A stretch of 55,282 nucleotides of DNA. It comes from a virus. The notes below the pieces were generated by a model. That model made no database searches. It was given only the letters and a program-made list of their open reading frames with translations, and was not told where the DNA came from. Within the stretch, counting starts at the first letter, position 1, and each line of letters starts with the position of its first letter. Below are positions 18,477-40,185 of the stretch, piece by piece. A program made the translations under genes and the position numbers. Where the stretch lies: IMG/VR virus record IMGVR_UViG_3300035659_000016, positions 1-55,282 of that record, one strand, 5' to 3'.

Positions 18477-19072
18477 ACTCTATTCTCCGTGTGGCGGAAG
18501 AATTCCGCACGTGCACTCTCGGAGGCTAGGAACACTCCAGCGAGAGCACTAGTTGTTGTGACGGCGCCGGGTTTCTCGACACCGCGCATCTCCATGCAAA
18601 GGTGACGGGCGACTAGAACAACCCCGGCACCCATGGGCTCTAGCTCAGCCACTACGCGTTCCAAAACACGCTGGGTGATGACCTCTTGAGAAGACAAGGT
18701 CCGAGCGTAGTAGTCCACTGTGCGTGCCAACTTACTCAGCCCCGCGAGCCAACGCGTGGGCAAGTAGGCTACGTGGGCTATCCCAAAGAAAGGAATGACG
18801 TGATGTGCACACAGCGAGTAGAAGGGAATGTTGGCCACGACGACCATCTGGTCGACGCGGGGGTTTTCGTTAGCGAACTTGGTAAAGGTGAAAACTTCGC
18901 CCACGCTGAGCTCCGTCACCATCATCTCCGCCCAACGCTTTGGAGTGTCGCATAGCGTCTCCGAGTCCGTGTTGTACCCCAAGGTTGTTAGAATACTTGC
19001 CATGTGCTTTTGGAGCTCTGCGACGCGTGTCTCAGCTACGGCACGACATTGGTACTGAACGGTACTACTCAT
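18473..19072 (-). CDS. folE: GTP cyclohydrolase I
   Basis: 199 residues. The FolE active-site region is intact: FYSLCAHHVIPFFGIAHVAYLP (zinc Cys and His), GLSKLARTVDYYARTLSSQE and ARHLCMEMRGVEKPGA (second zinc Cys). It converts GTP to dihydroneopterin triphosphate, the first step toward preQ0. Start ATG 19072 overlaps the QueE stop as ATGA. Together with QueD, QueE and QueC it forms a complete GTP-to-preQ0 route. Confidence 0.95.
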   Translation of the reverse strand: MSSTVQYQCRAVAETRVAELQKHMASILTTLGYNTDSETLCDTPKRWAEMMVTELSVGEVFTFTKFANENPRVDQMVVVANIPFYSLCAHHVIPFFGIAHVAYLPTRWLAGLSKLARTVDYYARTLSSQEVITQRVLERVVAELEPMGAGVVLVARHLCMEMRGVEKPGAVTTTSALAGVFLASESARAEFFRHTENRV

Positions 19073-19797
19073 ACTAACCTCACTTTCGGTCCGTGAATTA
19101 GTGCATGTAGCTGTGGCAACACACGCACGTTGTAGCCCGTCAGGCTAGTCGCCAGGCTCTCTAACCAAAGCAGTGCAGCGCGGTACGTCGGAACGCCGGC
19201 AGTCAGAAGGCGACCATCGGGTTGTAGGATGATTGTATTCTCTAGTGGGTTCGGCAGCATCGGCGACTGGAGCAGCTCACGTAGCACCATCCAATCGGTC
19301 ACATCGGTAACGACGAACTTGAGTTGCACATCGCAGGGCTCCCACCGATGGCAGAACTTGGCAATGACGTCTGTGTTCAGAGAACCACTTTGGGCCCCAG
19401 GCAACTTGGGCGACAGACTCCACAGGACCCGCCTCGGTGAACGCACCCCCAGGTCTTTGTCACCTAGATAGTTTGTGGCGTTGGTTTCGATAGTCACGAA
19501 GGTGCCTGTGTGTACCAACAGGTTGGTTAGGAGAGGCAGTTCGGGTTGGAGTGTTGGCTCGCCCCCGGTAAGGATGACAGGCAAGTCGAAAGTCAGCAAC
19601 TCGTTCGCCAGCGCCCCCGCGGGGACGTCCAAGACCTTGGGACCCCCAAAGGCTTCGCGGAAGAAGGGGTTAATGGCGTACTGCGTGTCACACCAGACGC
19701 AGTCTAGGTTGCAGCCGAAGAAGCGGCACAGCACTGACGCTTCGCCGATGCGCACGCCCTCGCCCTGAAAACATTTATAGACTTCGAGTACTTTCAT
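19069..19797 (-). CDS. queE: 7-carboxy-7-deazaguanine synthase
   Basis: 242 residues, a radical SAM enzyme. The cluster motif CNLDCVWC (C-x3-C-x2-C) follows the substrate segment YKCFQGEGVRIGEAS typical of QueE. TGGEPTLQ is the SAM-binding GGE motif and TIETNAT the next conserved strand. It makes 7-carboxy-7-deazaguanine from tetrahydropterin. SD AAGGAG 8 bases before ATG 19797; coupled to folE downstream. Confidence 0.95.
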   Translation of the reverse strand: MKVLEVYKCFQGEGVRIGEASVLCRFFGCNLDCVWCDTQYAINPFFREAFGGPKVLDVPAGALANELLTFDLPVILTGGEPTLQPELPLLTNLLVHTGTFVTIETNATNYLGDKDLGVRSPRRVLWSLSPKLPGAQSGSLNTDVIAKFCHRWEPCDVQLKFVVTDVTDWMVLRELLQSPMLPNPLENTIILQPDGRLLTAGVPTYRAALLWLESLATSLTGYNVRVLPQLHALIHGPKVRLV

Positions 19798-19809
19798 CTT
19801 CTATGCTCC

Positions 19810-20283
19810 TTAACCGTGGGGATAAGAGAACGGCTTGGGCTCGGGTTCGTACGCGGCCATTGAAGATCCGGTTTCCCAGACCTCCACACGATTGACCATC
19901 GGCAGTTGCGGCGCAAGCTGTGCGTAGAACCAAGCTGCCAGTTCTTCTGCCGTAGTGTCCACGACGTCCAGTACCGCACACCACACTTCCGGCAACGTCA
20001 CCGGACAGTTGCTGGGGCCACCGAATAGCACGGAGTCCAACACAGCCACCGTATCACAGTAGTGCCGTGCTAGTAGCACCTTGTGGTCCACCCCCACAAG
20101 TATCGAAGCCATGTAGTGTGCCAAGTCCACAAAGTCCATTACCATGCTTTGGTCGTTTAACACCTGCGCGTGAAGATAAACGACTACTTCGTAGTTGTGC
20201 CCGTGAAGGCGGTTGCACTTTCCAAGGTGGTTGGGCAGAATGTGCGCCGCTTCGAAGGTGAAGCTCTTACTTACGTGCCACAT
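19810..20283 (-). CDS. queD: 6-carboxy-tetrahydropterin synthase
   Basis: 157 residues from ATG 20283; a longer upstream reading lies inside the PfpI-like gene. Motifs: FEAAHILPNHLGKCNRLHGHNYEV (zinc His residues plus catalytic Cys), MVMDFVDL, GVDHKVL, TAEELAAWF and VEVWET (Glu). It converts dihydroneopterin triphosphate to 6-carboxy-tetrahydropterin, the second step of preQ0 synthesis. The start overlaps the PfpI-like stop, so the order of translation is PfpI-like, QueD, QueE, FolE. Confidence 0.94.
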   Translation of the reverse strand: MWHVSKSFTFEAAHILPNHLGKCNRLHGHNYEVVVYLHAQVLNDQSMVMDFVDLAHYMASILVGVDHKVLLARHYCDTVAVLDSVLFGGPSNCPVTLPEVWCAVLDVVDTTAEELAAWFYAQLAPQLPMVNRVEVWETGSSMAAYEPEPKPFSYPHG

Positions 20284-20911
20284 TTTCCTTCTCCTTTCTG
20301 TGTGCGAGGAGTCTTGCCAACTCCGGTGGCGGTCTGCGTCTACGGCCCCCAATGTTGCTCATAAGGGGTGTAGGCTCGAAGTGGTACTGTGGTGGTTTGC
20401 CGTCTAGCAAGTTACAGTACTCTCTGACCCAATACTCCGAGGCCATCTGGTGCTCAGCGGTGACCAGATTGTGGTCGCGTGTCATAGTCGTCCCAGTGAG
20501 AATCGCACCCGCCCGCTCTAGCAGTTCACGCGAACGGATGAGGGGAAAGAAACTGACCTTCTTCCCTGCAGTAGCCAAGCGAATGGCTGGTACAGAGCAA
20601 CAGATGGCTGCGATCGGCTTGAGCACGCCGTCCGCTTCTACGACTAGACGCTGGACGTCCTTGTGGTACCACAGAGACTCGGTGTCTTTCATGTTCCCGG
20701 AAACGACCATTAGACCCTCGTAGTCCTGCATCCGCAGTGCGGAGCCCACGAGGGCGGCGACACGTACCTGATCACTCAGGTCTAGTTCATCGGCAATGAT
20801 CGGTTCAGTCGCTGCTACAACGAACGTGTGCCCGCGCTCAAGCAAGACATCCAAAGTCATCCACAGCTCGTGCCCGTTGAAGCGGCGGGCGCAGATGACT
20901 AGGACTTTCAT
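20267..20911 (-). CDS. DJ-1/PfpI-like class I amidotransferase-fold protein
   Basis: 214 residues. The DJ-1/PfpI layout is visible: MKVLVICARRFNGHELWMTLDVL (first strand and helix), YEGLMVVSGNMKD (strand ending in the glycine turn), then the nucleophile elbow AAICCSVPAIRLATAG at about residues 102-117 and ILTGTTMTRDHNLVTAEH. The usual His right after the nucleophile Cys (AICHG) is Cys here, so classical protease or deglycase chemistry may be changed. It lies between queC and queD with overlaps at both ends, which makes a role in deazaguanine chemistry plausible. The basic C-terminal tail (about 195-214) is unusual and may bind nucleic acid or a partner. Confidence 0.72.
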   Translation of the reverse strand: MKVLVICARRFNGHELWMTLDVLLERGHTFVVAATEPIIADELDLSDQVRVAALVGSALRMQDYEGLMVVSGNMKDTESLWYHKDVQRLVVEADGVLKPIAAICCSVPAIRLATAGKKVSFFPLIRSRELLERAGAILTGTTMTRDHNLVTAEHQMASEYWVREYCNLLDGKPPQYHFEPTPLMSNIGGRRRRPPPELARLLAHRKEKENVARK

Positions 20912-21315
20912 CGCGTGAACCCAGCCTTTTGTGCACGATGTCGCTTCACGGTCGTTGCTGACATCTCTGGGACTTCCCCCTCCACAGGGGGCAGAGGTGC
21001 GTCCTCGACCTTGGCTAGGCGGTCGATGTTCAGCTTGGCTGCCTTGGCTGGGGTCTTCGGGTCGGCATCCGTGCGTAGTAGGTAGAGCTGACCACCACGC
21101 GAGAAGAGTTTGACTGGCAAGCCGTGTGAGCGAATGTACGCCGATACCGACGACGTCAGACTCACCAGACTCTGTTGCATGCCGGTGCGATCGATCAGGA
21201 CCAACACGTACCCAGACTCAAGGAACTCCTTAAGAATGGGGTAACTCACACGTCCACGATGGCCCGCGACCAAATCAGGAATCGATGCGGGATCCACCGG
21301 TTTGAGCAATACCAT
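20908..21315 (-). CDS. Hypothetical protein of the deazaguanine operon
   Basis: 135 residues from ATG 21315 with the SD AGGAGG upstream. The first ~85 residues look alpha/beta (VSYPILKEFLESGYVLVLIDRTG, a helix from SLVSLTSSVSAYIRSHG, and LPVKLFSRGGQLYLLRTD). The C-terminus is Pro/Lys/Arg-rich and disordered, ending TVKRHRAQKAGFTR. No family is recognised. It overlaps the PfpI-like start by 4 bases and follows queC. Confidence 0.55.
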   Translation of the reverse strand: MVLLKPVDPASIPDLVAGHRGRVSYPILKEFLESGYVLVLIDRTGMQQSLVSLTSSVSAYIRSHGLPVKLFSRGGQLYLLRTDADPKTPAKAAKLNIDRLAKVEDAPLPPVEGEVPEMSATTVKRHRAQKAGFTR

Positions 21316-21365
21316 TTTCCTTACCTCCTGTTGTTGTGGTACTGTGAGAGCACACACAACAAAAC

Positions 21366-22088
21366 CTAATTTTCGACGCCTGGGAGTCGGGGTTGGTTGG
21401 TCCCCTGAACCCACAAGGCGTCGCCGTTATAAACTGTGGGATCGGCCACCTTGGCCAACTCGAACGCTTCGTGACGCTCCACACAGGTACCACAGCGACC
21501 GCAGTGTGTCGAGCCACCTTTGTAACAACTCCACGTCAACTCGAAGGGAACATGCAAAGCGGCCCCCGCCTTTACAATAGCCGCCTTGGTGTCACGAATG
21601 AACGGAGTGCTGATGCGCACGGGTGGGTCAACCATACCCAGGTTGCCGAGTTGGAACGCATGCTCTAGGGTGTCCATGAAGTCAGGACGGCAGTCGGGAT
21701 AGATGGGATGGTCCCCTGCATGCACACCCACGAAGACGACCTCCGCCTTCTCAGCCACCGCCACGGCATACGCGATACTGAGAAAGACCGCATTGCGGTT
21801 CGGCACCACTGTGATGCGCATCGACGCATCGCGATAGTCGCCTTCAGGTACATCTATCGTGCGGTCTGTCAAGGCCGAACCGCCTAATAGAGCCGCGAGC
21901 GACTTGAGATCGACGACGTTGAGGGGGCACTCCAAGGCATTGCAAATCTGCCCTGCAGAACGAAGTTCACGATGGTGCCGCTGCCCGTAGTTGAAGGCCA
22001 GGGCGTGTACTCTATACCCCGCTTTCAAGGCGTAGTAGAGTGTCACGGTGGAGTCGATGCCTCCACTAGTGAGTACGATCGCTTTCAT
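21366..22088 (-). CDS. queC: 7-cyano-7-deazaguanine (preQ0) synthase
   Basis: 240 residues from ATG 22088 (SD TGGAGG). The PP-loop LTSGGIDST binds ATP. FNYGQRH, VPNRNAVFLSIA, GVHAGDHPIYPDCRP and the zinc cluster SCYKGG-x-HCGRCGTC are the QueC signatures. It turns 7-carboxy-7-deazaguanine into preQ0. There is no fused amidotransferase domain of the Gat-QueC type and no QueF gene in the window, so preQ0 itself or a product made by an unrecognised enzyme is the expected precursor for DNA. Confidence 0.95.
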   Translation of the reverse strand: MKAIVLTSGGIDSTVTLYYALKAGYRVHALAFNYGQRHHRELRSAGQICNALECPLNVVDLKSLAALLGGSALTDRTIDVPEGDYRDASMRITVVPNRNAVFLSIAYAVAVAEKAEVVFVGVHAGDHPIYPDCRPDFMDTLEHAFQLGNLGMVDPPVRISTPFIRDTKAAIVKAGAALHVPFELTWSCYKGGSTHCGRCGTCVERHEAFELAKVADPTVYNGDALWVQGTNQPRLPGVEN

Positions 22089-24600
22089 TTTTACCTCCAG
22101 TGCCTGCGTTGGAGATGACAATTTCAGTGGCGAGTGGCAGCTTGTCGGGCAAGTCTAAATCCGCTCGGCGCGCTTCTTCCAACGAGACTTTATACATCCA
22201 ATAAGTCGCCCCTTTGAGAGTGACCGCTGTGCGACACAGTATGTACTGCCCCACCTGGGGCTTCCTCGGATCGATCAGGCGCTCTTGTAACTGTGCCTTG
22301 AGTGCGGGTAGTTCCAACGCGTCGCGACCGGCACGACGTCGCTCCGTGGCCCACCACGTGTAGGCCGAAGAGATCTGAAAACCCATCGCCGCTTCCCTTG
22401 GAAACCACGCCGCCACATAACGAGGATGGTCGTTGGTAGCCATGTCGTTCACCAACGCTTCGATGAACTCGTCAGCCAACAATGAAGTGCGCCCCGACTT
22501 TTCGACGACATTGAACAATGTTTCCTCAAAGAGACTACGCACGTACTCTGGCGTCAGAAGGGGCTGCCGCAGCCCCAAGCTTTCCAACCACAGTGCTAGG
22601 TGAATCAGCCCATGCACCCCAATAGCCAAGTTCTGTCGCACACGGTCCGGCATGGGCTGGTTCGCGAAAGCGTCTTGAATCGATCGGAGGGCCTCGGTCC
22701 ACTTCAAGGGCGCCTGAAGCGTATACTGGATGTAGGCCGCCGCGATGCGGTTGATCCCCAGGGTATCGATTTGGCGATGTGCTTTCTCGGCTGGTGTACC
22801 TAGGTCGATGGTCTCGGGCATTAGCCGTACTTGCAAGACGCGCTCCTTGAGCGCCGGGTCTACTAACGCATCTTCGCCGTCGACGATCAACGGTGAAGTC
22901 AAGGGATACTCTTGTGTCGTCTGATCCGCTCTACCTCTAGCATCCCGGCCACTATCGTACGCTAGTAACAAATAACGTAGCAGGCGTGGGGTGCTATGCA
23001 ACCGAAACTCACTCAGTGAAACCGGCAAAGCGTTCGTCGCACCTAGCAAGGTCAGTAGGACGAAATTGGTTGTGCCACTGTCGTACGAACGCCCATCGAC
23101 AACCCCCAGTAGGGGCAGCAGCACACGAGTGATCGTAACTGTCTTACCACTACCTCTCGTGCCGAAGATGTTGAGAAGCGGGTAGCGCACATTCAGGTCC
23201 CACAACAGCGGCTTGAAGGGAGCTGAGAAAAGCCAGCCCAGTACGGGGCCCATCACCTCTGGACGATTCAGTTGCCATAGAAGTGGGAACAGTTGTCGTG
23301 CTAAGGCTTTCACTACGGTGGGCTCCACGGTGGCGTAGTGTGTGTGTGGTGCTTCGCGTTGCGCACTCATGTAGTGCACAGGACGTGCGTCGCCTTCGGT
23401 AATCTCCGCGGCTGAAAGGACCTGATCGGTACCCACCCAGTAGTTCTCGAAGCGCCCCAACACACGAGTGGCCTGGATCTTGGGCAACCCTTTGGCTAGG
23501 AGTTGTTGCATTAGGTATGGCAGCAGTGCCCGCAACTGGCGGTCACTGCCTAACCACTGTGCTGCGGCCTGTGGCATCTGGCGGTTGAGATCGCTCACGG
23601 AATTGAAAGCAATCTTGGTAAGCACCTGGCTGGGCCACACAAACCCACTCGCATGCAAAACCCCTAGGAGCGCGTCCACTGCATGTGCGTCGGTGTGCTC
23701 GATAAGGGCCTGCGGCTCAAACGTGAAAGTACTAACTGGTACCTTGTCACCCCGTAGCAAAACAAAGTATTGGTCGTTCTCCATAACGAAGGGCCCTGCT
23801 ACGCACGCGGCTCCGCCCCCAGCAGTCTTGGCTGCTCGTGCTGTCGCGCGCTTCAGTGTATGCTCCCAGTAGTTGCCCCCTTCCCGCATCTTGTTACCAC
23901 ACGGTGCAACAGCGAAGACCTGGGTAGTAGTGTCTACAGAAACCCCAGCGCTCAGCATTGCAGTCACAACGGCCCAATCGCGTTCCGAGCGACTGCGGTG
24001 CCCCGAGTTACCCGATGTGTTCACGGCGTGATGGATCTCCACCGGAATCGCCAGGGCAGCTTGCAAATCGCCCCACGTATAGCGGTTGTCTTCGGCGGTC
24101 ACCAGGTTGCACGGTTTGGGATGTTGGGGGTCTTTGAAGTTTGTCGTCCCTGGCACTCTTAGGATACGTGCAACATCGTGAACCTTTGTGTCGCCACCTA
24201 GCAAGGTTGCGGCTTGCGTCATCCAACCTTCTGCCGCCTCGAAGTCATCGGGGCCCAAGGCCTCTGTCAACAACCAATAGTAGTGATACCCGTTACCGGA
24301 GTCCACGACCAGCGATGGCGGCAACGCAAAAGGGGGAGGCTCACGTGTAGCGTCGACATCTATCCACAGAGACAGCAGACGGCTAACGTTGCGTTTGCTC
24401 CCACCCCCCTTGGCACCCCTTGGTGCCACACCGACGTAGAGGTGCCCTGTGCCCAGAGTAGCTGTCGCCGCTGTCGCTTCGGAAGGGGAATGCACGAAGT
24501 GTGCCTTCATCGTCTTCGAGGCCGGATTGGGTTGATGTCTGAGCTCAATCCTCTCCTTCGCCTTGATCCCTGCAAATAGTAACGAAAAAAAGTCTTCCAC
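22066..24600 (-). CDS. AEP primase-polymerase fused to SF3-like helicase
   Basis: 844 residues from GTG 24600 (SD GAGGTAG). The N-terminal ~200 residues show archaeo-eukaryotic primase motifs: LWIDVDA (metal Asp pair), VVDSGNGYHYYWLL and ARILRVPGTTNFK (sugar/triphosphate motif). A middle helical region (about 200-430) follows. The C-terminal ATPase has Walker A GTRGSGKT near residue 480 and a Walker-B-like region with SLSEFR, as in SF3/DUF927-like phage helicases. It would prime and unwind DNA, serving the polymerase encoded in the same arm. The last 23 bases overlap queC. No DnaB- or DnaG-type gene is present, so this is probably the sole primase-helicase. Confidence 0.85.
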   Translation of the reverse strand: MEDFFSLLFAGIKAKERIELRHQPNPASKTMKAHFVHSPSEATAATATLGTGHLYVGVAPRGAKGGGSKRNVSRLLSLWIDVDATREPPPFALPPSLVVDSGNGYHYYWLLTEALGPDDFEAAEGWMTQAATLLGGDTKVHDVARILRVPGTTNFKDPQHPKPCNLVTAEDNRYTWGDLQAALAIPVEIHHAVNTSGNSGHRSRSERDWAVVTAMLSAGVSVDTTTQVFAVAPCGNKMREGGNYWEHTLKRATARAAKTAGGGAACVAGPFVMENDQYFVLLRGDKVPVSTFTFEPQALIEHTDAHAVDALLGVLHASGFVWPSQVLTKIAFNSVSDLNRQMPQAAAQWLGSDRQLRALLPYLMQQLLAKGLPKIQATRVLGRFENYWVGTDQVLSAAEITEGDARPVHYMSAQREAPHTHYATVEPTVVKALARQLFPLLWQLNRPEVMGPVLGWLFSAPFKPLLWDLNVRYPLLNIFGTRGSGKTVTITRVLLPLLGVVDGRSYDSGTTNFVLLTLLGATNALPVSLSEFRLHSTPRLLRYLLLAYDSGRDARGRADQTTQEYPLTSPLIVDGEDALVDPALKERVLQVRLMPETIDLGTPAEKAHRQIDTLGINRIAAAYIQYTLQAPLKWTEALRSIQDAFANQPMPDRVRQNLAIGVHGLIHLALWLESLGLRQPLLTPEYVRSLFEETLFNVVEKSGRTSLLADEFIEALVNDMATNDHPRYVAAWFPREAAMGFQISSAYTWWATERRRAGRDALELPALKAQLQERLIDPRKPQVGQYILCRTAVTLKGATYWMYKVSLEEARRADLDLPDKLPLATEIVISNAGTGGKNESDRTH

Positions 24601-28819: not shown

Positions 28820-28980
28820 GGTTCGTTCTCCTTGTCGTCGTCGAGCTGGGCCTGTAGTTCATCAAAGGCCATTTGGTCGGCTAGACACTCGGGACAAAGG
28901 GTCTCGTCATCCTGTGGCGTGAAGAAGACACGGCACTCCGAGCAGCGGATCATTTTCTTGGTCTTCTTTGGCTTGGCCAT
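28816..28980 (-). CDS. 54-residue zinc-ribbon protein
   Basis: A short frame from ATG 28980, with GGAGGGG upstream (second of two adjacent ATGs). A Lys-rich start (MAKPKKTKKM) is followed by CSEC and, after 12 residues, CPEC, which is a textbook four-cysteine zinc ribbon, and then an acidic helix. It overlaps the genes on both sides. It probably binds nucleic acid or a protein partner in the helicase/nuclease group. Confidence 0.75.
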   Translation of the reverse strand: MAKPKKTKKMIRCSECRVFFTPQDDETLCPECLADQMAFDELQAQLDDDKENEP

Positions 28981-29411
28981 CATTTACCCCTCCGCTTCTG
29001 GAACTCCGCGAGTCCCTCAGCCGTAAAGAGCCACACGCCAGTCGCATTCGAAGACCCTGGGACGTTCCCGCTCATCGCGAGTTTGCGTAGGTACTGGCGA
29101 TGCAGCCCGACTAGGGTCGCCGCGGCCCGTATCCCATAGGTTCCGTCTGCCGCTGGGCCGTCTGAGGGAGGGCGCAGAGGTGAGGCTGTGGCTCTGTGGC
29201 GCATGCTGGAGGGCGGTAGCCAATGCTTCGGTCCTCGATTCTTTTCAGGGATGGGTTGGTCGCTGAGACTCTCCTCGGGGATCCACGCCCCAATTTTCTT
29301 GAGGGGGAAGAAGACATCATAGAGTTTCACATCGGCTTCCAATCGGTGACCCCGAACCTTGCCCTCGCCGTAGTGGCGATGGTACACCATCTGCCGTAGA
29401 TTGAATGACAT
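28980..29411 (-). CDS. Protein with C-terminal MerR/HTH_17-like DNA-binding domain
   Basis: 143 residues. Residues about 1-50 (QMVYHRHYGEGKVRGHRLE) recall the small beta-barrel of CarD/TRCF RNA polymerase-interaction domains, though weakly. Residues about 90-143 are a winged-helix unit of excisionase type: YGIRAAATLVGLHRQYLRKLAMSGNVPG, ending in the GVWLFTAEGLAEFQ wing. It is probably a regulator of phage transcription. A perfect inverted repeat lies just upstream at 29442-29483. Confidence 0.65.
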   Translation of the reverse strand: MSFNLRQMVYHRHYGEGKVRGHRLEADVKLYDVFFPLKKIGAWIPEESLSDQPIPEKNRGPKHWLPPSSMRHRATASPLRPPSDGPAADGTYGIRAAATLVGLHRQYLRKLAMSGNVPGSSNATGVWLFTAEGLAEFQKRRGK

Positions 29412-29493: not shown

Positions 29494-29784
<291 letters not shown>

Positions 29785-30909: not shown

Positions 30910-32310
30910 CTAACCTCCTTCCACTGTAGCAAGGGCCCAGGCAAACTTTGCCCGGAGCGCTTTGCTGTAAATCTTCAACCAAGACCCTGTTGGGTCCCAG
31001 TCGACGAACACACGGGGGTCAATGTAGGACTTCAGCGACGTGCCGAGATTGTAGTCTTGTGCGGCGACTAGGAACTCTTTCTCGCGGCTGGGTTGCTTCT
31101 TGGCGAGCCGCTCTTCCCAGTTCTTGGGCAGTGTGCGACGATGATTCAACCGCTGCGCTGCGGCTAAGTTGGCGTACTTCGCTGTTAGCACAGTGTCGCC
31201 TTTCAGGTCCCGCCCTTGAGTAGGTCCGCTACATCCCTTCAAGAACTCGCGGGCCGCTGCCGTGCCGTGCATCGTGCGGAATGTCTTGGCTGTCAACCCC
31301 CCCATCTGTGCTTTCAGGAAGCGGTTGATGTCCTGAGCACTCACGTGTGGGAACAATGGCTCGTCGCCCTGAGCCGAGTCGAGTCGCGTGACGATCGCGT
31401 TGAAGATCGCTCGCGGTGGAATGAACGTCACTTCGAGCCTCACACTGTCCTTGCCCAAGAAGTCCAACGACACCTCTTGGCTGTCGAGTTCGTAACTCAC
31501 GTGCTCGCATCGCAATGTGCAAACGCCTACTGTGTCGGCTGCGTCCTCGCCCTTCTCGTCGCCGACGCGCAGGGCGAGATTGTCAAGCAAGTACATCGCG
31601 GTGCGAAACTCCGGAGAGTATAGGCCCGACGCATACAACTCGCGAATACGCTCGATGTCCCTTGTGAGTGCGAGTGCCTTGTCGTACTTGGCTTTGTCCT
31701 TGCTTTGGCGTGGCGCTGCGGTCTCGGCGACCCACAGGTACTTGCGACCGTGCTGACCGAGTGGTTTGGGCCAACTAGCAATCCAGTACTGGTCACGCAT
31801 CTCGACGATGTGACGCCACTTCCCCAGTGGGATCGGTGCCTTGGCGTCCAAGTTGAGTGTGACGTCTTCTGCCGTGATGCGATCTTTCCAACGACCACGC
31901 AACGGGTGGTCGCCACGACCGATGAAGATGCCCGGCGGCTCGATGCCGTACTGACAGGGTGTCTTGACCCCATCAATTGTAGCAAAACCAAAGTTGGCCT
32001 TGGTTGCCTGCTGTCGCATCTTGCGGAGCTTGCGTTCTTCGGGCGACAGCTCCTTCAACGTTGGCGGCAACTTAATGACTAGGTCGAACGGCCAGTCACG
32101 TAGCTCACGGTCGCTCGCCTTCGACATCATGTTGAGGTCGTGTACGAAGTTGGTCTTGAAGACCTTGTCCTTGCGGCGTTCTTCGGGCTGGCGCCACCAA
32201 GCGACGAGCATCTCTTCCGCTAGGGGCGACAACCACGACTGGCCCGTAGCCTTGAACGGCTCTGGAAAGACGACGCCGTTGTGTCGGAATGTCTTCCATG
32301 GCTGTGTCAT
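30910..32310 (-). CDS. Eukaryotic-type DNA topoisomerase IB
   Basis: 466 residues from ATG 32310 (SD AAGGAGG). It contains the full eukaryotic-type arrangement. An N-terminal DNA-binding part comes first (WKTFRHNGVVFPEP, LSPLAEEM, KVFKTNFVHDL). The core signature YGIEPPGIFIGRGDHPLRG then follows, with DRITAEDVTLNL. The catalytic set is present: Arg in LALRVGDEK, Lys in DFLGKDSVR, Arg in KTFRTMHGT, His in QRLNHRRTL and Tyr 429 in SLKSYIDPRV. It nicks one strand through a 3'-phosphotyrosine and relaxes supercoils of both signs. This large form is typical of eukaryotes and Thaumarchaeota, not of the short poxvirus/bacterial kind. It lies in the early arm with small phage genes on both sides, so it is not contamination. 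Confidence 0.93.
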   Translation of the reverse strand: MTQPWKTFRHNGVVFPEPFKATGQSWLSPLAEEMLVAWWRQPEERRKDKVFKTNFVHDLNMMSKASDRELRDWPFDLVIKLPPTLKELSPEERKLRKMRQQATKANFGFATIDGVKTPCQYGIEPPGIFIGRGDHPLRGRWKDRITAEDVTLNLDAKAPIPLGKWRHIVEMRDQYWIASWPKPLGQHGRKYLWVAETAAPRQSKDKAKYDKALALTRDIERIRELYASGLYSPEFRTAMYLLDNLALRVGDEKGEDAADTVGVCTLRCEHVSYELDSQEVSLDFLGKDSVRLEVTFIPPRAIFNAIVTRLDSAQGDEPLFPHVSAQDINRFLKAQMGGLTAKTFRTMHGTAAAREFLKGCSGPTQGRDLKGDTVLTAKYANLAAAQRLNHRRTLPKNWEERLAKKQPSREKEFLVAAQDYNLGTSLKSYIDPRVFVDWDPTGSWLKIYSKALRAKFAWALATVEGG

Positions 32311-32325
32311 TTGTCTCACCTCCTT

Positions 32326-32543: not shown

Positions 32544-32600
32544 TGGGCTGGCAGTCACCCCGTTACACTGTTGTGTGACGGGGTCTGGTCCGCTATCCCA
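32544..32600 (-). ncRNA. Structured RNA-like element, copy 1 of 5
   Basis: Read on the - strand: outer stem TGGG/CCCA, conserved block GGATAGCGGACCAG, a variable inner stem of 12 bp (ACCCCGTCACAC with GTGTAACGGGGT) and conserved block GACTGCCAGCC. The stop codon TAG of the upstream gene forms part of the first block. It lies between two small genes, just before the SD of the next. Confidence 0.7.
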
Positions 32601-32820
32601 TTAGCGCCATTTCACGCTTAGTCACCTCCCTCCTATGGGTGACTTGGACGCGCGCCTCCTCTCGAACGAAGTGATACGTGATGCGTTTGCCGTCTGAGAA
32701 CAGGACGGATAGCGTCCGCCGTGCTCGATCCATCCGGGCTGACTTGGGGTTGCCGTGCTCAATGGTGCCTAGAAGGAACGCGGCGTCCCACTGAGCCCCT
32801 GTGCTAACTGTCTTAGGCAT
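32593..32820 (-). CDS. Hypothetical small basic protein
   Basis: 75 residues, SD GAGGAGG before ATG 32820, inside the end of the upstream gene. Possible KTF/SH3-like strand pattern: RRTLSVLFSDGKRITYHFVREE, with many Arg residues. No domain is certain. Its stop codon lies in the conserved block of the structured element that follows. Confidence 0.5.
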   Translation of the reverse strand: MPKTVSTGAQWDAAFLLGTIEHGNPKSARMDRARRTLSVLFSDGKRITYHFVREEARVQVTHRREVTKREMALMG

Positions 32821-33082
32821 TGTGTGCCTCCTCTAGTTTGACAACGGCGAAGCGGCTGGCAGCCTTGGTCAGGATGGCGCCGCTGCCATTTGGGTCGAAC
32901 AGAGTGAAGACCAGTTCCGTAGAGCCGTCGTCGAATTGATACAACCAGGTAGCTAGGACTCGGAAGTTTGCGTCGCCCCTCAGCCGGGTCATGTCGTAGA
33001 TGCCGGAGCCAGCGCTCTGATCCGCGACCACGACCGTTAGGCCTCGGAAGTGCGTCTGGACGTTACCGACGTGCTTTGTCAT
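32813..33082 (-). CDS. Hypothetical small protein
   Basis: 89 residues, SD AAGGAGG before ATG 33082. Predominantly beta: THFRGLTVVVADQ, FRVLATWLYQFDDGSTELVFTLFDPNG and ASRFAVVKLEEA. No family is recognised. The structured element at 33097-33165 occupies the leader just upstream. Confidence 0.5.
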   Translation of the reverse strand: MTKHVGNVQTHFRGLTVVVADQSAGSGIYDMTRLRGDANFRVLATWLYQFDDGSTELVFTLFDPNGSGAILTKAASRFAVVKLEEAHNA

Positions 33083-33096
33083 AGTGAACCTCCTTT

Positions 33097-33165
33097 CTTA
33101 GGTTGGCACTCAGGGCCCTAGGTGAGATGAAGAGAGCCTAGGACCCCGTGGTCCGTTATCCTAAG
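33097..33165 (-). ncRNA. Structured RNA-like element, copy 2 of 5
   Basis: - strand: outer stem CTTAGG/CCTAAG, conserved block GGATAACGGACCA, then an inner stem of GGG and CCTAGG pairs with one mismatch, then TGAGTGCCAACC. This copy diverges most in its second block. It follows the stop (TAG 33161-33163) of the preceding small gene and precedes the SD of the next. Confidence 0.65.
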
Positions 33166-33349
33166 GCGTGGCGTCTACCACGTGGACCTCTAGGATGTCG
33201 TAGTCGGCAATGAGGGCGAGCGGCTCTAGGACGGCTACTAGGTTCTCGCGGGCTATGCGTCCCGCCAGTAGGTCCTCGGCACCTTCTGCCACGACAATCG
33301 GGTCGTTGGCGAACCATCTCTTGCCCATTTCCACGGTCGCGTCGTCCAT
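33161..33349 (-). CDS. Hypothetical small acidic protein, start uncertain or frameshifted
   Basis: 62 residues from ATG 33349, acidic and helical (GAEDLLAGRIARENLVAVLEPLALIADYDILEVHVVD). No SD precedes this ATG. The only good SD in the region (AAAGGAGG) serves ATG 33399, which is in another frame, reads MNAKRVTFHLDIVSIS and then runs into an implausible 48-codon frame. A one-base shift near 33350-33360 would join the two into a 78-79 residue protein. Either a recent frameshift, a sequencing error or recoding is possible. Confidence 0.45.
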   Translation of the reverse strand: MDDATVEMGKRWFANDPIVVAEGAEDLLAGRIARENLVAVLEPLALIADYDILEVHVVDATP

Positions 33350-33428
33350 GGGCTGATTGACACGATGTCCAGATGGAATGTAACTCGCTTGGCGTTCATG
33401 CTGTGTCCTCCTTTCATTTTACAAACTA

Positions 33429-33458
33429 ATTATACTACAAGACAGGTGTCTTTTTCAC
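33429..33458 (-). promoter_or_regulatory. Leftward promoter, class 1, copy 4
   Basis: - strand: GTGAAA (-35, weakest of the family), 18-base spacer with GACACCTGTC palindrome, TATAAT (33434-33429). It shares the spacer core GACA-SS-TGTC and TGTA before TATAAT with the copies at 34733, 35432 and 36713. It drives the small gene at 33161-33349/33399. Confidence 0.65.
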
Positions 33459-33515
33459 TGGGGACAACCTTAAAGTTTTGATTCAAATTAGACTGTCTGT
33501 GTGCTAAAGAGACCA

Positions 33516-33544
33516 ATAGCCCGTCTCGACTTGAGGCGGGCTAT
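33516..33544 (-). terminator. Hairpin terminator after HTH_17 gene
   Basis: ATAGCCCGTCTC (33516-33527) pairs with GAGGCGGGCTAT (33533-33544) with one mismatch over 12 positions and a 5-base loop. It begins 10 bases past the stop of the 33555-33962 gene. On the - strand the downstream sequence is pyrimidine-rich. Confidence 0.68.
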
Positions 33545-33554
33545 CGGCTGTCGG

Positions 33555-33962
33555 TCACGCTGCGGGCTCGGGTAGGAGCTCGACGAAACCGCTGGCGTCG
33601 CTTGGCTCGGTCGTGACGACCACGGCCCCCTGGACGAATCCTTTGTCTTCCAGATCGGGCGTAGCAACCGGCACCTTGGGCTGGCGCGGCTTGCGGGTCT
33701 TGCGCTGCTTCGGTGCGTTGCCGGGCGAGTCGATGTTCGCCGTGACAGCGCCGTAGGTCGGTGCCTGCGCCTTGCGTGCGTCGCGGGTCGTCTTGTACTC
33801 CGTGAGGGACGCGACCGAAATCATTGTCCGGTTGTCCTCTTTCACGGTGTCCAAGCGGCGCTCCCAGAGCAACTTGCGGACTCTGTGGACGGAGACGCCC
33901 AGGAAGTCTTGTGCTTCCTTAACCGACATGTAGCTCTTCGCGGCTGACAGTTTCTTCGACAT
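33555..33962 (-). CDS. HTH_17 DNA-binding protein, paralogue of 37199-37453
   Basis: 135 residues, SD TAAGGAGG before ATG 33962. Residues about 10-57 are a winged-helix HTH_17 unit: MSVKEAQDFLGVSVHRVRKLLWERRLD, then a MISVASLTEYK wing. The motif FLGVSVHRVRKLLWER is identical in the protein encoded at 37199-37453, so the two are paralogues. The C-terminus (about 75-135) is basic then acidic and disordered. It is probably a transcription regulator; possible sites are the promoter palindromes or the operators at 37636-37753. Confidence 0.78.
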   Translation of the reverse strand: MSKKLSAAKSYMSVKEAQDFLGVSVHRVRKLLWERRLDTVKEDNRTMISVASLTEYKTTRDARKAQAPTYGAVTANIDSPGNAPKQRKTRKPRQPKVPVATPDLEDKGFVQGAVVVTTEPSDASGFVELLPEPAA

Positions 33963-34034
33963 TTTGGCCTCCTTAGCCTATTCGCTCCTCACGCCCAAGC
34001 GACGGGCCTGGGTGCGAGTGAGACTCTTTGTTAA

Positions 34035-34106
34035 GCTGCGGCTGACAGTCACCCTGCCTTGCCTTACTGGCACTGGCACTGGCAGGGTCTGGTTCGTTAT
34101 CCGCTA
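34035..34106 (-). ncRNA. Structured RNA-like element, copy 3 of 5
   Basis: - strand: outer stem GCGG/CCGC, conserved block GGATAACGAACCAG, inner stem ACCCTGCC/GGCAGGGT with a long 22-base loop that can fold further (GGCA/TGCC), and conserved block GACTGTCAGCC. It lies in the leader of the HTH_17 gene, after the 34129-34371 gene. Confidence 0.72.
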
Positions 34107-34128
34107 TAGGATGCTATGTTGCTATGCC

Positions 34129-34371
34129 CTAGGCTTCCACGAGCGTAATGGTAATGCCGTCTGGGACTTCGTAGACTCTGGACACCGGGTTGTCATTCAG
34201 GTCTGTGACGTAACGAATCGAGGTGGCGGGGTAGCCCATAGCCTCGGCCACCAACCGCGCCGCGCCTCGCGGTGTCGCACTACGAAAGCGAAAGGTGTGT
34301 GGCTTGCTTGGGTCGGTTGGTCGTGGCCACTGTTCCTCTACGACCGCTGTGTAGACTTCTGTCTTTGGCAT
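34129..34371 (-). CDS. Hypothetical small protein
   Basis: 80 residues from ATG 34371 with a SD identical to those of neighbours (AAAGGAGGTGAGACA). Sequence: KPHTFRFRSATPRGAARLVAEAMGYPATSIRYVTDL then VYEVPDGITITLVEA. It looks like a small alpha/beta domain. The RS-type helix may bind DNA or RNA; no family is assigned. The structured element at 34399 stands in its leader. Confidence 0.5.
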   Translation of the reverse strand: MPKTEVYTAVVEEQWPRPTDPSKPHTFRFRSATPRGAARLVAEAMGYPATSIRYVTDLNDNPVSRVYEVPDGITITLVEA

Positions 34372-34398
34372 GTGTCTCACCTCCTTTCTTTGTTCTGT

Positions 34399-34452
34399 CT
34401 GGGCTGACAGTCCAGGCGTCGGCACTCGGCGCCTGCTGGTTCGTTATCCCAG
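34399..34452 (-). ncRNA. Structured RNA-like element, copy 4 of 5
   Basis: - strand: outer stem CTGGG/CCCAG, conserved GGATAACGAACCAG, inner 8-bp stem (CAGGCG core, one wobble) with 7-base loop, conserved GACTGTCAGCC. The upstream gene stops at TAA within the first conserved block. The element is followed by AAAGGAGG and the start of the next gene. Confidence 0.72.
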
Positions 34453-34662
34453 TCTTGCAATGGCAATGTCTCGCGCCTCCACAACGTCGTGTCGCTTGCT
34501 GTAGGCGACCAAGAAAATGCCGAGATACTTGTAGGTGGCCGCCATGAAGTGCTTGGCCATCCACGCGGCGACGTCGTCGGCTGTCTTGCAGTCTGCGTAC
34601 TCTTTAGCTGCAACGGCTAGGCCGGTCGCGATCTTGTCTTTGGCTTCCTCTGACAGTGGCAC
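34444..34662 (-). CDS. Hypothetical small helical protein
   Basis: 72 residues from GTG 34662 (AAAGGAGG 8 bases upstream; a GTG at 34671 lies in the SD). Helical: LSEEAKDKIATGLAVAAKEYADCKTADDVAAWMAKHFMAATYKYLGIFLVAY. No domain is recognised. It is the first gene behind the promoter at 34733-34762. Confidence 0.5.
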   Translation of the reverse strand: MPLSEEAKDKIATGLAVAAKEYADCKTADDVAAWMAKHFMAATYKYLGIFLVAYSKRHDVVEARDIAIARLG

Positions 34663-34732
34663 TTGTCTCACCTCCTTTCATGCCCAGATTGTTGTGTGTC
34701 TCTATAGGCAATGGTTGTCTTTCTTCAATTTT

Positions 34733-34762
34733 ATTATACTACAGGACAGGTGTCGTTTGCAC
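34733..34762 (-). promoter_or_regulatory. Leftward promoter, class 1, copy 3
   Basis: - strand: GTGCAA (-35), 18-base spacer containing GACACCTGTC, TGTAG and TATAAT (34738-34733). It shares spacing and core with the other class 1 copies and stands about 75 bases before the start of the 34444-34662 gene. Confidence 0.72.
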
Positions 34763-34792
34763 TACGACACACCTTAAATTTTTTGTTCAGTT

Positions 34793-34847
34793 GTCGGCTG
34801 GCAGTCAGGGCGCCGTTGGCATGGCGCCCCCTGGTTCGTGATCCGAC
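34793..34847 (-). ncRNA. Structured RNA-like element, copy 5 of 5
   Basis: - strand: outer stem GTCGG/CCGAC, conserved GGATCACGAACCAG, inner stem GGGCGCC/GGCGCCC with 8-base loop, conserved GACTGCCAGCC. It begins at the stop of the 34847-35077 gene and ends about 30 bases before the class 1 promoter at 34762, so it lies at the 3' end of one unit rather than directly before an SD. Confidence 0.7.
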
Positions 34848-35077
34848 TACACTTTGATGTCTGCTGCGGCCGCTTTGCTGTCTGTCTCGGCGCAATCTAC
34901 GATGTCCTGATGTGACATCGGTGTCCTTTCTGGCACCTTGATGTCGTAGGTCGCGTCTTCTAGACACGCTTGTGCATCCGTGTCGTCTTCAAAAATGGTC
35001 TTGCAGAGCCATTCGTGAAGCGTTTCTGGCGTGACGTCGCCGTCTACCACGAACTTGACGTTGTAGGCTCGAGCCAT
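34847..35077 (-). CDS. Hypothetical small acidic protein
   Basis: 76 residues, SD AAAGGAG before ATG 35077. Begins YNVKFVVDGDVTPETLHEWLCKTIFEDDTD, a short beta-alpha unit, then acidic. No family is recognised. It lies between two class 1 promoters. Confidence 0.5.
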   Translation of the reverse strand: MARAYNVKFVVDGDVTPETLHEWLCKTIFEDDTDAQACLEDATYDIKVPERTPMSHQDIVDCAETDSKAAAADIKV

Positions 35078-35393: not shown

Positions 35394-35431
35394 TGTGTCC
35401 TCCTTAGAAGGATTGTTAAGGTTCTAATTAT

Positions 35432-35461
35432 ATTATATTACAGGACACCGGTCGTTTGCAA
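35432..35461 (-). promoter_or_regulatory. Leftward promoter, class 1, copy 2
   Basis: - strand: TTGCAA (35461-35456), 18-base spacer with GACCGGTGTC and TGTA, TATAAT (35437-35432). Near identical to copy 1 at 36713. Confidence 0.8.
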
Positions 35462-35670
35462 GGGGTCGCAGTGTGCCAATTTTGTTGTCGAGTGGCGCGC
35501 TTGGCGATTCTAAAATTAGGTTTGGTTTGGCTAGCCTAGCAAACGGTCAATTCGTTTTTGGATTCGGAAATTCGAAAATTCTGTGCTCGACATTGAACCA
35601 TGTGGGCTACCCTCTGCTGACACCTTGTCATGGGGGAGCACAAAAAGTGATCCAAAGGTGACCCAAAAAA

Positions 35671-35872: not shown

Positions 35873-36104
35873 CGTCGATTTTTCGTGTTCAGGAGCACTG
35901 TTTTTGTGTTCAGGGGCGATACCCTAGATGGTCTTCGTCGCATCCGAACAAGCCTCGTTGTCACAGAATCTAGTACTACCACGACACGAAGGCTGACCGG
36001 ACACCCAGCGGTGCGTCGCATGTAGCTGCAGGGTCGTGGCCGGAGGAAACCCCACGGCGACTCCCCCTGTGCCTCCACCGCGGGGCTGGGCCAGACTGGA
36101 CAGG

Positions 36105-36260
36105 CTGATGTAGCAGCATGTCGGGTCACGGAAGGACGTAGCGGCTAGGGCGTGTCCAGATTCGACGTAGCGGCATGTCCGGACGTAACAACGTGGCACG
36201 TAGCGACCCTGGCGTGTCCAGATGGGACACAGGACGTACTGGGCAGGGCCAGACACGCCA
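36105..36260. repeat. Iteron-like repeat cluster I
   Basis: Repeated variants of GACGTAGCGGC, GGCATGTCCG and GGCACGTAGCGACC, mixed with TGTCC/GGACA half-palindromes. The same words occur again in cluster II at 36768-36950. Repeat density and absence of genes resemble a replication origin or protein-binding array. Confidence 0.6.
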
Positions 36261-36330
36261 GGGGAGATTGCGGGGGCGAGGCGGGACACGACTACTCATA
36301 GGCAGGTGGGGCCTCGGACTCTTTCTTCAG

Positions 36331-36374
36331 AGGAGACGCCAGCGTGTCGTGGCGCGCTGGCGCTCCTGTCTCCT
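36331..36374 (-). terminator. Hairpin terminator
   Basis: Inner stem GCCAGCG (36338-36344)/CGCTGGC (36355-36361) and outer AGGAGAC (36331-36337)/GTCTCCT (36368-36374). It sits 7 bases past the stop of the 36382-36666 gene on the - strand. Confidence 0.6.
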
Positions 36375-36381
36375 GTCGCGA

Positions 36382-36666
36382 CTAGGCTACTTTGTCGTAG
36401 TCTTCGATGAACCAGTCTCCGATGTCGACATTGTGTCTCTTCGCGAACTTTTGAATCGCTCCGAGATACGCTTCGATGTTTGTCGGCGCCTGCACCTTGT
36501 CGTACATAGCGTGCAGTTCGACGAAGACTTCGTTCCGCTTCTTTGTCGGATCATCGGTGTTATGTGTCGGCAGTGTGATGTGTATTGCTTCGGTGAATTG
36601 TCCGCTCGAGAACGACCCGTAGGCGTTGCCTAACTTGAATGCGTCGGCTGTCGATAGGTGTTTCAT
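36382..36666 (-). CDS. Hypothetical small protein
   Basis: 94 residues from ATG 36666 (SD AAGGAGG). Helical: HLSTADAFKLGNAYGSFSSGQF, then a polar loop and NEVFVELHAMYDKVQAPTNIEAYLGAIQKFAKRHN. No domain is assigned. It has its own class 1 promoter at 36713-36742 and a hairpin terminator, so it is a monocistronic unit. Confidence 0.55.
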   Translation of the reverse strand: MKHLSTADAFKLGNAYGSFSSGQFTEAIHITLPTHNTDDPTKKRNEVFVELHAMYDKVQAPTNIEAYLGAIQKFAKRHNVDIGDWFIEDYDKVA

Positions 36667-36712
36667 GTCTCGCTTAACCTCCTTGTAGACTTGTTGTGTT
36701 GTCTTCAATTAT

Positions 36713-36742
36713 ATTATATTACAGAACACCTGTCGTTTGCAA
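36713..36742 (-). promoter_or_regulatory. Leftward promoter, class 1, copy 1
   Basis: - strand: TTGCAA (36742-36737), 18-base spacer with GACAGGTGTT and TGTA, TATAAT (36718-36713). The GACA-N2-TGTC-like palindrome in the spacer is common to all four copies and is a likely operator. It drives the 36382-36666 gene. Confidence 0.8.
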
Positions 36743-36767
36743 GGGGTCCTTCCCCGCCAATTTTTGG

Positions 36768-36950
36768 CACGTAGCGACCGTGTCGTAGCGGGACACGACG
36801 TAGTGGCACGTAGCGACTGGGTCGGGGTCGAACACGACGCAGCGGCATGTCGGCGCAGCGGCATGTCGAGACAGGACACATTGCGTCGGGGGCAGGGCCA
36901 GATTCGATGTAGCGACTGTGGCACGTAGCGACCGTGTCTTATCCAGACAG
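36768..36950. repeat. Iteron-like repeat cluster II
   Basis: At least three copies of GGCACGTAGCGAC, two of CGCAGCGGCATGTCG, and GACACG/CGTGTC half-sites, sharing words with cluster I. It lies in the noncoding stretch 36667-37056 between the class 1 promoter and a tandem 20-base repeat. Confidence 0.6.
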
Positions 36951-36965
36951 GACAAGGGGACCCCC

Positions 36966-37198: not shown

Positions 37199-37453
37199 TC
37201 AACTTTCTTGAACTTCTAGTTGTGAAGATTCGTTCACAACTTCCTCAAGTTTGTTGCTTGTGTGGTAGGTAGGAGACTTGACCATTCGGTTGTCTCTTAC
37301 CTTCTTGTACTTTGTGAGAGATTCGATCGTAATCATTGTACGACCATCGACCTTTTGTGAGTCAAGTTTCCTCTCCCACAAAAGTTTACGAACTCGATGA
37401 ACCGAAACTCCCAAAAACACCATACTCTCTTTCACATTCAAAAACTTCTTCAT
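37199..37453 (-). CDS. HTH_17 DNA-binding regulator
   Basis: 84 residues, SD AAAGGAG 7 bases before ATG 37453. Residues 5-50: LNVKESMVFLGVSVHRVRKLLWERKLD and MITIESLTKYK, nearly the same recognition helix as the paralogue at 33555-33962. AT-rich codons unlike its neighbours suggest a separate origin. First gene of the leftward arm, behind a sigma70-like promoter and next to three palindromic sites, so a switch regulator is plausible. Confidence 0.8.
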   Translation of the reverse strand: MKKFLNVKESMVFLGVSVHRVRKLLWERKLDSQKVDGRTMITIESLTKYKKVRDNRMVKSPTYHTSNKLEEVVNESSQLEVQES

Positions 37454-38003: not shown

Positions 38004-38735
38004 ATGCGATCCAAACCAATAACCACAGCGGGTCGCCCACGCGACCAAGACCTAGAGGTACTCGACCCCGAACTCGAAGACGACGCTGTGCGAGAGGATG
38101 TCGCCGCGATGCCCGTAGCAGTCAATGGCCCGGCGCCCGCGACGACGTTGGCGGCAGTATTTCCCGTCGAGACCCTAACCGGTCGACATCAGCAAGGCAA
38201 GCCCCGCTCCGGAGCCAAGAACTTTCGCCATACCAAGTTCCAGCGTAAGATGGGGCGTGCCGAGCGACTTAAGAACGTCGCCGCCTGGTTGCACGCTGGG
38301 CTGACCCAAACCGAGATGGCAGAGCGTGCGGGTGTTAGTCAACCCATGATTAGCCTAGACCTAATACTCCTAGGCAAAAAGTTTCACGAACAGGCCGGAC
38401 AAAGCACGAGTGAATGGGTGGGCCGCGAGCTAGCCTACGCACTCGAACGCCGCGCCGAACACCTCGGGGTAGCACAAAAGGGTGCCGACCTCAACACAAT
38501 GAAGCACTACACTCTGGTCTTGAAGTGGACCGAGCGGGTCGCCATGTTGCTGGGCTTGGACGCGCCGAGCAAAGTCGACAACTGGACCGATAAGGACTGG
38601 AAGAAGTTCCTAGAAGAGAATGGACTAGAGGAAGCCGATGCTATCCGAGAGGCAGAGCTCATTATCAACTCAGCAAAAAGCGGGCCTGCTTTACTTGCAG
38701 CAGGTCCTGGCTCCGAAGCTACGCGAGTCGCTTGA
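38004..38735 (+). CDS. terS: Terminase small subunit
   Basis: 243 residues, SD AAGGAC before ATG 38004. After a disordered acidic N-terminus (1-80), residues about 85-130 hold a helix-turn-helix (RLKNVAAWLHAGLTQTEMAERAGVSQPMISLDLILL) as in small terminases that recognise the packaging site. A helical oligomerisation region (about 140-200) and an acidic tail follow. It lies immediately before the large subunit and overlaps it by 98 bases. It is the first late gene. Confidence 0.85.
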   Translation: MRSKPITTAGRPRDQDLEVLDPELEDDAVREDVAAMPVAVNGPAPATTLAAVFPVETLTGRHQQGKPRSGAKNFRHTKFQRKMGRAERLKNVAAWLHAGLTQTEMAERAGVSQPMISLDLILLGKKFHEQAGQSTSEWVGRELAYALERRAEHLGVAQKGADLNTMKHYTLVLKWTERVAMLLGLDAPSKVDNWTDKDWKKFLEENGLEEADAIREAELIINSAKSGPALLAAGPGSEATRVA

Positions 38736-40185
38736 CGGTCATAGTCGTAGCAAGTACGAGTTCCGCGGAGTCGCCTTCACCCTCCAGACCGCGCAGGACC
38801 GCGAAATCGTTCTTACAGGGGCCACGCGCACTGGCAAGTCTCTAGCCGCCCTTTACAAATTGCATCGCTGTGCACTCAAGTATCCAGGATTCAGAGGACT
38901 GATTATCCGTAAGACGCGCGAGTCGCTGAACGAGTCCGGCCTCCTGACGTTCGAGCGAGACGTACTTGGTAGTCGGTCCTCTCTCCTGAGCGGAGCGCGG
39001 CGCGCCAGTCGCCATTCGTACATCTACCCCAACGGGGCGGAGATTGTTGTTGGTGGGCTGGTAGCCAATGGTCGTGACCAGATAGCCAAGATCATGTCTA
39101 CGGAATACGACATGATCTTCGCACAAGAGTGCACCGAGCTAGCCGAGACCGAGTGGCAACAGTTGCTGACACGGCTGTCCAACTACAGGATGCCCTACCA
39201 GCAGATCATTGGTGACTGCAACCCGAACGTACCCACGCACTGGGTGCGACGGCGCTCCTTGAGCAAGCGCCTCCTGTTGTGGGAGATGTTCTTCCACGAC
39301 AACCCGCGCTGGTGGGTCATTGACGAGTTGGACCTCAGTGGTGAGGGCGGGCACTGGACAACTGAGGGCATGGCACTGATGGCCAACCTCAAGACCCTTA
39401 CTGGCCTATCACGTCAGCGACTAGTATTGGCACAGTGGGTGCAAGCAGAGGGCGCCATCTTCAACGAGGTCTGGGACGAGTCACGCGGTAGCATTAGCGA
39501 AGGCGCCCTCTTCGAAAAGGACGCCGGGGAGATCTATTGGGCCGCAGATGACGGGTACTCAGCGGGTTCGGCAGCCCTAACCGGTGGCCGCGACGCGGAG
39601 ACAGGATACTACGCCGCCGATGCGCATCCGCGCGTCTTCCTAGTCTGCCAGCTCAAGCCAGACGGTCACATCGACGTCCTGTGCGAAAGCTATGCGTGTC
39701 TGAAACTCACCGACGACCACATCGCCGAAGTCCTAGCGCTGCCGAAGACGTTGGAGGATGTGCAGACCCGGCTTCAGTCCAGCCCGCTACATGGTGACAA
39801 ATGGCTCGAAGCCAATCCCAACAAGGTGACGCAGGTGCGTGAGGTGCGGGACATGCACCCGGATTGGTTCTACGACGAGCCGACCATTGTCTCCTTTGGG
39901 CCCGGCAGCGCAGAGTTCAGGGGACGCCTTTACGCCGCGCAGCTGGTACCGCACCAATGTACCGAACGCGTGGACACATCACTACAAGAACTTCGGAGTT
40001 GGCTGTCCGCGGATGCCAACACCTTCCGGCGGATTAGAGTAAATCCGTCGTGTGTGAACTTACGAATGCAAATGGTAGAGTACTCTACCGACGAGGCCAC
40101 CCAAAAGCCACGCAAGGCGTTTGACGACGGGCCAGACGCCCTTCGTGGTCTGGTTTGGGTACTCAGAGGAATGGTTAATGCCTAA
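38638..40185 (+). CDS. terL: Terminase large subunit
   Basis: 515 residues from ATG 38638 (SD GAGGAAG), within the end of terS. ATPase: GATRTGKS (Walker A, about residue 61), YDMIFAQECTEL (Walker B, about 160) and IIGDCNPNVPTHWV (coupling motif). The C-terminal nuclease begins near WAADDGYSAGSA (about 303) and carries an Asp near DDGPDALRG (about 500). It cuts concatemers and drives DNA into proheads through the portal. Confidence 0.92.
   Translation: MLSERQSSLSTQQKAGLLYLQQVLAPKLRESLDGHSRSKYEFRGVAFTLQTAQDREIVLTGATRTGKSLAALYKLHRCALKYPGFRGLIIRKTRESLNESGLLTFERDVLGSRSSLLSGARRASRHSYIYPNGAEIVVGGLVANGRDQIAKIMSTEYDMIFAQECTELAETEWQQLLTRLSNYRMPYQQIIGDCNPNVPTHWVRRRSLSKRLLLWEMFFHDNPRWWVIDELDLSGEGGHWTTEGMALMANLKTLTGLSRQRLVLAQWVQAEGAIFNEVWDESRGSISEGALFEKDAGEIYWAADDGYSAGSAALTGGRDAETGYYAADAHPRVFLVCQLKPDGHIDVLCESYACLKLTDDHIAEVLALPKTLEDVQTRLQSSPLHGDKWLEANPNKVTQVREVRDMHPDWFYDEPTIVSFGPGSAEFRGRLYAAQLVPHQCTERVDTSLQELRSWLSADANTFRRIRVNPSCVNLRMQMVEYSTDEATQKPRKAFDDGPDALRGLVWVLRGMVNA

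Follow-up and report, generated by a model that had tools for sequence, protein, structure and literature searches.

Five copies of a new, unclassified structured-RNA motif, here called E1 to E5, are found between small genes of an uncultured tailed phage and belong among phage cis-acting mRNA elements. The shape of the element is under selection, as seen in stems that change in sequence from copy to copy and keep their pairing. Several functions are hard to tell apart; the likeliest, which is put forward here tentatively, is that a factor recognises the element in mRNA at the ends of cistrons, where it would direct processing and/or 3'-end protection.

Five copies of the element

The window analysed here is the whole IMG/VR virus record, which has 55,282 bases and 56% GC, and its 3' end is a copy of its start, exact over 104 bases and then with mismatch. 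The initial annotation had claimed five elements on the - strand between positions 32544 and 34847, and all of them are present at the coordinates that it gave, with lengths of 54-72 nt; the outer stems that it listed are also correct in 5/5 copies (Table 1). The left-box pattern GGATNRCGRACCA has exactly five occurrences in the window, all within E1-E5, and its chance expectation there is 0.84 even with one mismatch permitted. There is no sixth copy of the element in the record.

Table 1. Coordinates and parts of the five elements, with flanking genes, promoter-like repeats and terminase
Feature	Position	Strand	Boxes	Outer stem	Inner stem	Remarks
E1	34793..34847	-	GGATCACGAACCAG 34844-34831; GACTGCCAGCC 34806-34796	GTCGG/CCGAC	GGGGCGCC/GGCGCCCT	
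E2	34399..34452	-	34449-34436; 34412-34402	CTGGG/CCCAG	CAGGCG/CGCCTG	
E3	34035..34106	-	34102-34089; 34050-34040	GCGG/CCGC	ACCCTGCC/GGCAGGGT	
E4	33097..33165	-	33161-33148; 33111-33101	CTTAGG/CCTAAG	GGGGTCCTAGG/CCTAGGGCCCT	P2 is CAC/GTG, not CAG/CTG
E5	32544..32600	-	32598-32585; 32556-32546	TGGG/CCCA	ACCCCGT/ACGGGGT	
Small gene, ends at E1	34847..35077	-				76 aa; no family match
Small gene, ends within E2	34444..34662	-				No convincing family match; start picked from Shine-Dalgarno AAAGGAGG at 34678-34671
Small gene between E2 and E3	34129..34371	-				80 aa; no family match
Open frame, ends within E4	33161..33349	-				Probably frame-disrupted
Small gene, ends within E5	32593..32820	-				75 aa; no significant family match
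Promoter-like repeat (TATAAT), just 3' of E1	34727-34768	-				Repeat family D3; sigma-70-like matches
Further promoter-like repeat	33423-33464	-				Four copies in total
Further promoter-like repeat	35426-35467	-				
Further promoter-like repeat	36707-36748	-				
Terminase	38638-40185	+				

Structure and covariation

A bulged core, GGATNRCGRACCAS...GASTGYCARCC, is common to E1-E5 and almost invariant, and the stem sequences that flank it vary in every copy. The outer stem P1 has 4-6 bp and is variable apart from an invariant GG/CC, while the 5x2 internal loop (AUNRC / AR) is conserved in sequence. Around the small helix (G-C, R-Y) the left strand of the element reads AUNRC-GR-AC and the right strand YC-AR. 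This 2-bp helix G-R/Y-C, which shows A-U to G-C covariation, is absent from the initial annotation, as are the 3-bp helix P2, which changes from CAG/CTG to CAC/GTG in E4, two bulges of conserved sequence, a 2-nt AC and a 2-nt GA on the 3' side, i.e. on the opposite strand, and the 5x2 internal loop. The inner stem P3 has 6-11 bp and is variable, and the terminal loop is conserved neither in sequence nor in length.

In the alignment of E1-E5, 94% of the cells are paired. Compensatory double changes keep the pairing at 13 of the 18 consensus pairs, as counted over five paralogues of one genome; shuffled controls have a mean of 6.1 such pairs, and the count of 13 is attained in 0 of 500. Sliding the partner columns by one to three positions lowers the pairing to 27-41%, and a slide of one column is enough to bring it from 94% to 36-41%. 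RNAalifold returns the identical 18 pairs from the alignment alone. A covariance model built from E1, E2, E3, and E5 recovers the left-out E4, which is the most divergent copy, with 39.3 bits (E=8.5e-9), and the next-best site in the window scores 12.7 bits. Since the boxes anchor the alignment, its fitting is of less concern. The view that compensatory stem changes reflect a selected secondary structure, which the initial annotation had proposed, is supported. When more flanking sequence is included in the fold, thermodynamics alone gives several copies a weak outer stem.

Pairing is equal on both strands, with 85/90 cells on the gene strand and 86/90 on the complement, so that pair counts favour neither strand, and the MFE of the complement is lower than that of the gene strand in four of the five copies. 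All copies have one orientation, which is the direction of every flanking gene, Shine-Dalgarno sequence and promoter repeat. Since these all point the same way, gene-strand RNA is probably the functional molecule, judging from the direction of transcription and from position.

Position of the elements relative to genes

Counted from the first base of the element, the stop codon of the preceding gene ends at 0, +8, -23, +4, and +7 nt for E1-E5, respectively. That upstream genes end inside the first block, as had been suggested for several of them, holds for E2 (TAA 34446-34444) and E5 (TAG 32595-32593) and fails for the other three: the stop codon ends at 34847 in E1, at the outer stem, the TAG of E4 is within the outer stem, and that of E3 ends at 34129, 23 nt ahead of the element. 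The next start is found 14 to about 130 nt downstream. Three copies are 14-27 nt ahead of a start with a strong Shine-Dalgarno sequence, E3 is at 72 nt, and E1 is at about 130 nt as measured to the start at 34662, being followed by a promoter repeat with no gene directly after it. With a promoter following E1, a tight distance to the stop (-23 to +8 nt) and a loose one to the start (14 to 130 nt), the element belongs to the ends of cistrons more than to their starts.

The gene before E4 (33161-33399, - strand) has an ATG at 33399 with a good Shine-Dalgarno sequence, in a frame that differs from that of the long frame ending in E4; the gene seems to be disrupted in frame, by a sequencing error, decay or a programmed frameshift. 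The promoter-like repeat is of the type TTGCAAACGACAGGTGTTCTGTAATATAAT, and the core between its hexamers is a GACANNTGTC-like palindrome, a possible operator. Stop-codon readthrough is not general among the copies, as the frame is open through E2 only and further stops are found in E1, E4, and E5. Pairing between the terminal loop and the Shine-Dalgarno sequence is plausible by eye only in E4.

Genome setting and searches for homologues

The record encodes, on the - strand, a DNA polymerase of family A with an N-terminal uracil-DNA-glycosylase domain (14767-17160) and a phage-borne topoisomerase IB of eukaryote type with N-terminal, catalytic, and C-terminal domains (30910-32319). The genes at 17353-22121 (- strand) encode QueC, QueD, a radical-SAM protein (QueE-like), and GTP cyclohydrolase I, with a weak match to tRNA-guanine-transglycosylase, and this set is probably involved in 7-deazaguanine DNA modification. 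Four related HTH_17 DNA-binding proteins are also encoded on the - strand (33555-33962, 37199-37453, 29494-29784, and 28980-29411), the first two of which are 63% identical, although one sits in a very AT-rich tract. The stretch 36015-36954 is non-coding and carries a 37-nt repeat (GTGGCACGTAGCGACC...) in seven degenerate copies; it is a possible origin or regulatory region.

The phage is very isolated and is almost without detectable relatives. A DNA search with the element region has no match in 50,697 phage records, and no relatives are found by DNA in phages and plasmids. The capsid-region, helicase, and terminase proteins give no useful relative as queries, and single-sequence queries with the capsid-region and terminase proteins find no relatives in IMG/VR. 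The topoisomerase IB has relatives in two other IMG/VR contigs, with 34-35% identity; both contigs are without the element and have nothing further detectable in common with the phage.

The initial annotation recognised no known RNA family, in agreement with Rfam 15, which has no match in the window at the gathering threshold; at E<=10 the one match is by chance (Xoo5) and lies outside the elements. The strict box pattern has 0 matches in IMG/VR, while relaxed patterns match 7 and 89 stretches in IMG/VR and 4 in GTDB. These approximately 100 sites have inner stems of 0-2 bp, against 6-11 bp in E1-E5, and none of them scores above 24.7 bits, where E1-E5 have 65-74, so they are considered chance matches, as the inner stem is missing and the scores are low. 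No homologue of the element is found in IMG/VR, GTDB, the INPHARED phages or the PLSDB plasmids. A covariance model run over 296 genomes from one actinobacterial phylum, with no positive control, finds nothing. The element family is known from one orphan phage only, and its covariation rests on five paralogues.

Proposed function and alternatives

Under the cistron-end reading, E1-E5 would be copies of one cis-acting mRNA element, carried by a block of small phage genes that are strongly initiated and probably early. The stems would serve only to hold the conserved bulged core, whose surface a specific partner would read; the likeliest partner is a nuclease or an RNA-binding protein, of the host or of the phage. 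The element would mark a cut site on the polycistronic transcript and/or protect the resulting 3' ends, and the cistrons would become separate, stable mRNAs in the fashion of the intercistronic sites of phage T7. The core is taken as the part that is read because the stems and the loop vary freely, in contrast to the nearly invariant internal bulges, and the action is placed at the end of the cistron because the element tracks the upstream stop codon and not the downstream start. Host RNase III is usually tolerant of sequence change, so that a core this invariant speaks for a different factor; in the phage itself, no gene for RNase III is found. The five paralogues of a single genome, the equal pairing of the complement strand, and the weakness of the outer stem in context are counted against this reading.

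A possible but less probable function is that of a translational operator, in which a phage protein bound to the core would repress or couple downstream translation and several small genes would be controlled together. The three copies close ahead of a strong Shine-Dalgarno sequence are consistent with it, the outer stem of E4 ends directly 5' of the Shine-Dalgarno region, and in 4/5 copies the element would be unfolded by ribosomes that arrive at the stop codon ahead of it. For E1, however, a promoter lies between the element and the distant next start, the start after E3 is also far, and the consensus structure sequesters no Shine-Dalgarno sequence.

It is doubtful that the core binds a ligand, as a riboswitch aptamer, or cleaves the mRNA at the ends of cistrons, as a small self-cleaving ribozyme. 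A nearly invariant unpaired core with free helices and a free loop is the anatomy typical of both, and five copies in one genome would suit a separation of mRNAs by ribozymes, but the Rfam ribozymes and riboswitches give no match, the adjoining genes have no recognised common function and no expression platform is visible. That E1-E5 are five uses of a new small-RNA class, self-cleaving or ligand-sensing, which separates or regulates small early cistrons, is improbable.

A transcription signal, i.e. a pause, an attenuator or an antitermination element similar to put of HK022 that loads on RNA polymerase, is unlikely as well. Like put, the element would be an RNA of a phage early region, the two are similar in size, and repeated use along operons is conceivable, but put is made of two stem-loops near early promoters (PMC9378689), while each of E1-E5 is one hairpin at the end of a gene. 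Full termination does not fit E2, E4, and E5, which are inside operons; as E2 and E3 are in an operon with no promoter-like repeat between them, transcription must run through E2, which is thus not a full terminator. On the - strand no terminator-like site is found for E1-E5, and no T-run follows any copy.

Very improbable is a recombination site of folded single-stranded DNA, similar to attC of integrons, that joins small gene cassettes, and the mobile spacer linking cassettes that the initial annotation had offered among its possible roles is disfavoured with it. The uniform orientation at gene ends, the stop codons in the first box, the variable stems with conserved inverted boxes, and the equal pairing of both strands would all suit such a site, but the record has no tyrosine recombinase (topoisomerase IB aside) or resolvase, and some of the segments between elements carry promoters and two genes. 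A search of the whole phage record with the PF00589 profile finds nothing; a host enzyme could act in its place. The boxes also misfit the attC R-box consensus, which is RYYYAAC ... GTTRRRY; here they read GGATNRC ... GYCARCC, and the full AAC/GTT pair is found in 0/5 copies.

The element is a new structured-RNA motif that covaries strongly within one genome, that of a phage nearly devoid of detectable kin. Should it act in processing, in translation or as a ribozyme, it would be a new way for a phage to divide or tune its polycistronic early transcript. The function is directly testable, since the five natural variants already show which bases to mutate.

Comparison with known systems

The intercistronic RNase III sites of phage T7 are irregular hairpins between early genes of a polycistronic transcript, near stop codons, and they are read mainly via the shape of the helix. 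E1-E5 resemble them as several irregular hairpins between small phage genes, close to stops, and differ from them in the nearly invariant sequence of the bulged core and in that RNase III cleavage is here only putative.

A literature search for this motif, or for phage RNAs like it, yields ESAS, put, and attC only. ESAS of cluster K mycobacteriophages have a 17-bp inverted repeat directly 5' of the 13-bp SAS GGGATAGGAGCCC near start codons, and the paper describing them sees little evidence that they form mRNA hairpins (PMC3203893). Like ESAS, E1-E5 are multi-copy intergenic inverted repeats of a phage, with a variable spacer, among non-structural genes and of unknown function, but their stems covary and they track stop codons, whereas ESAS track translation starts (PMC3203893). 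On reading the region, no SAS-type repeat is found by E1-E5, which therefore fall outside the definition of ESAS.

The put RNA of HK022 has approximately 70 nt and two stem-loops downstream of early promoters, with bulges that are read by RNA polymerase (PMC9378689). E1-E5 are also cis-acting phage RNAs of similar size with conserved bulges, but each forms a single hairpin with internal loops at a gene end. With attC (PMC2727003) they share bulges, boxes that are conserved and a terminal stem that varies, as well as a place where small genes end, but no integrase is found and the AAC/GTT triplet of the R-box is lacking. Among these systems, the T7 intercistronic sites would be the nearest to E1-E5 in behaviour and ESAS are the nearest in pattern.
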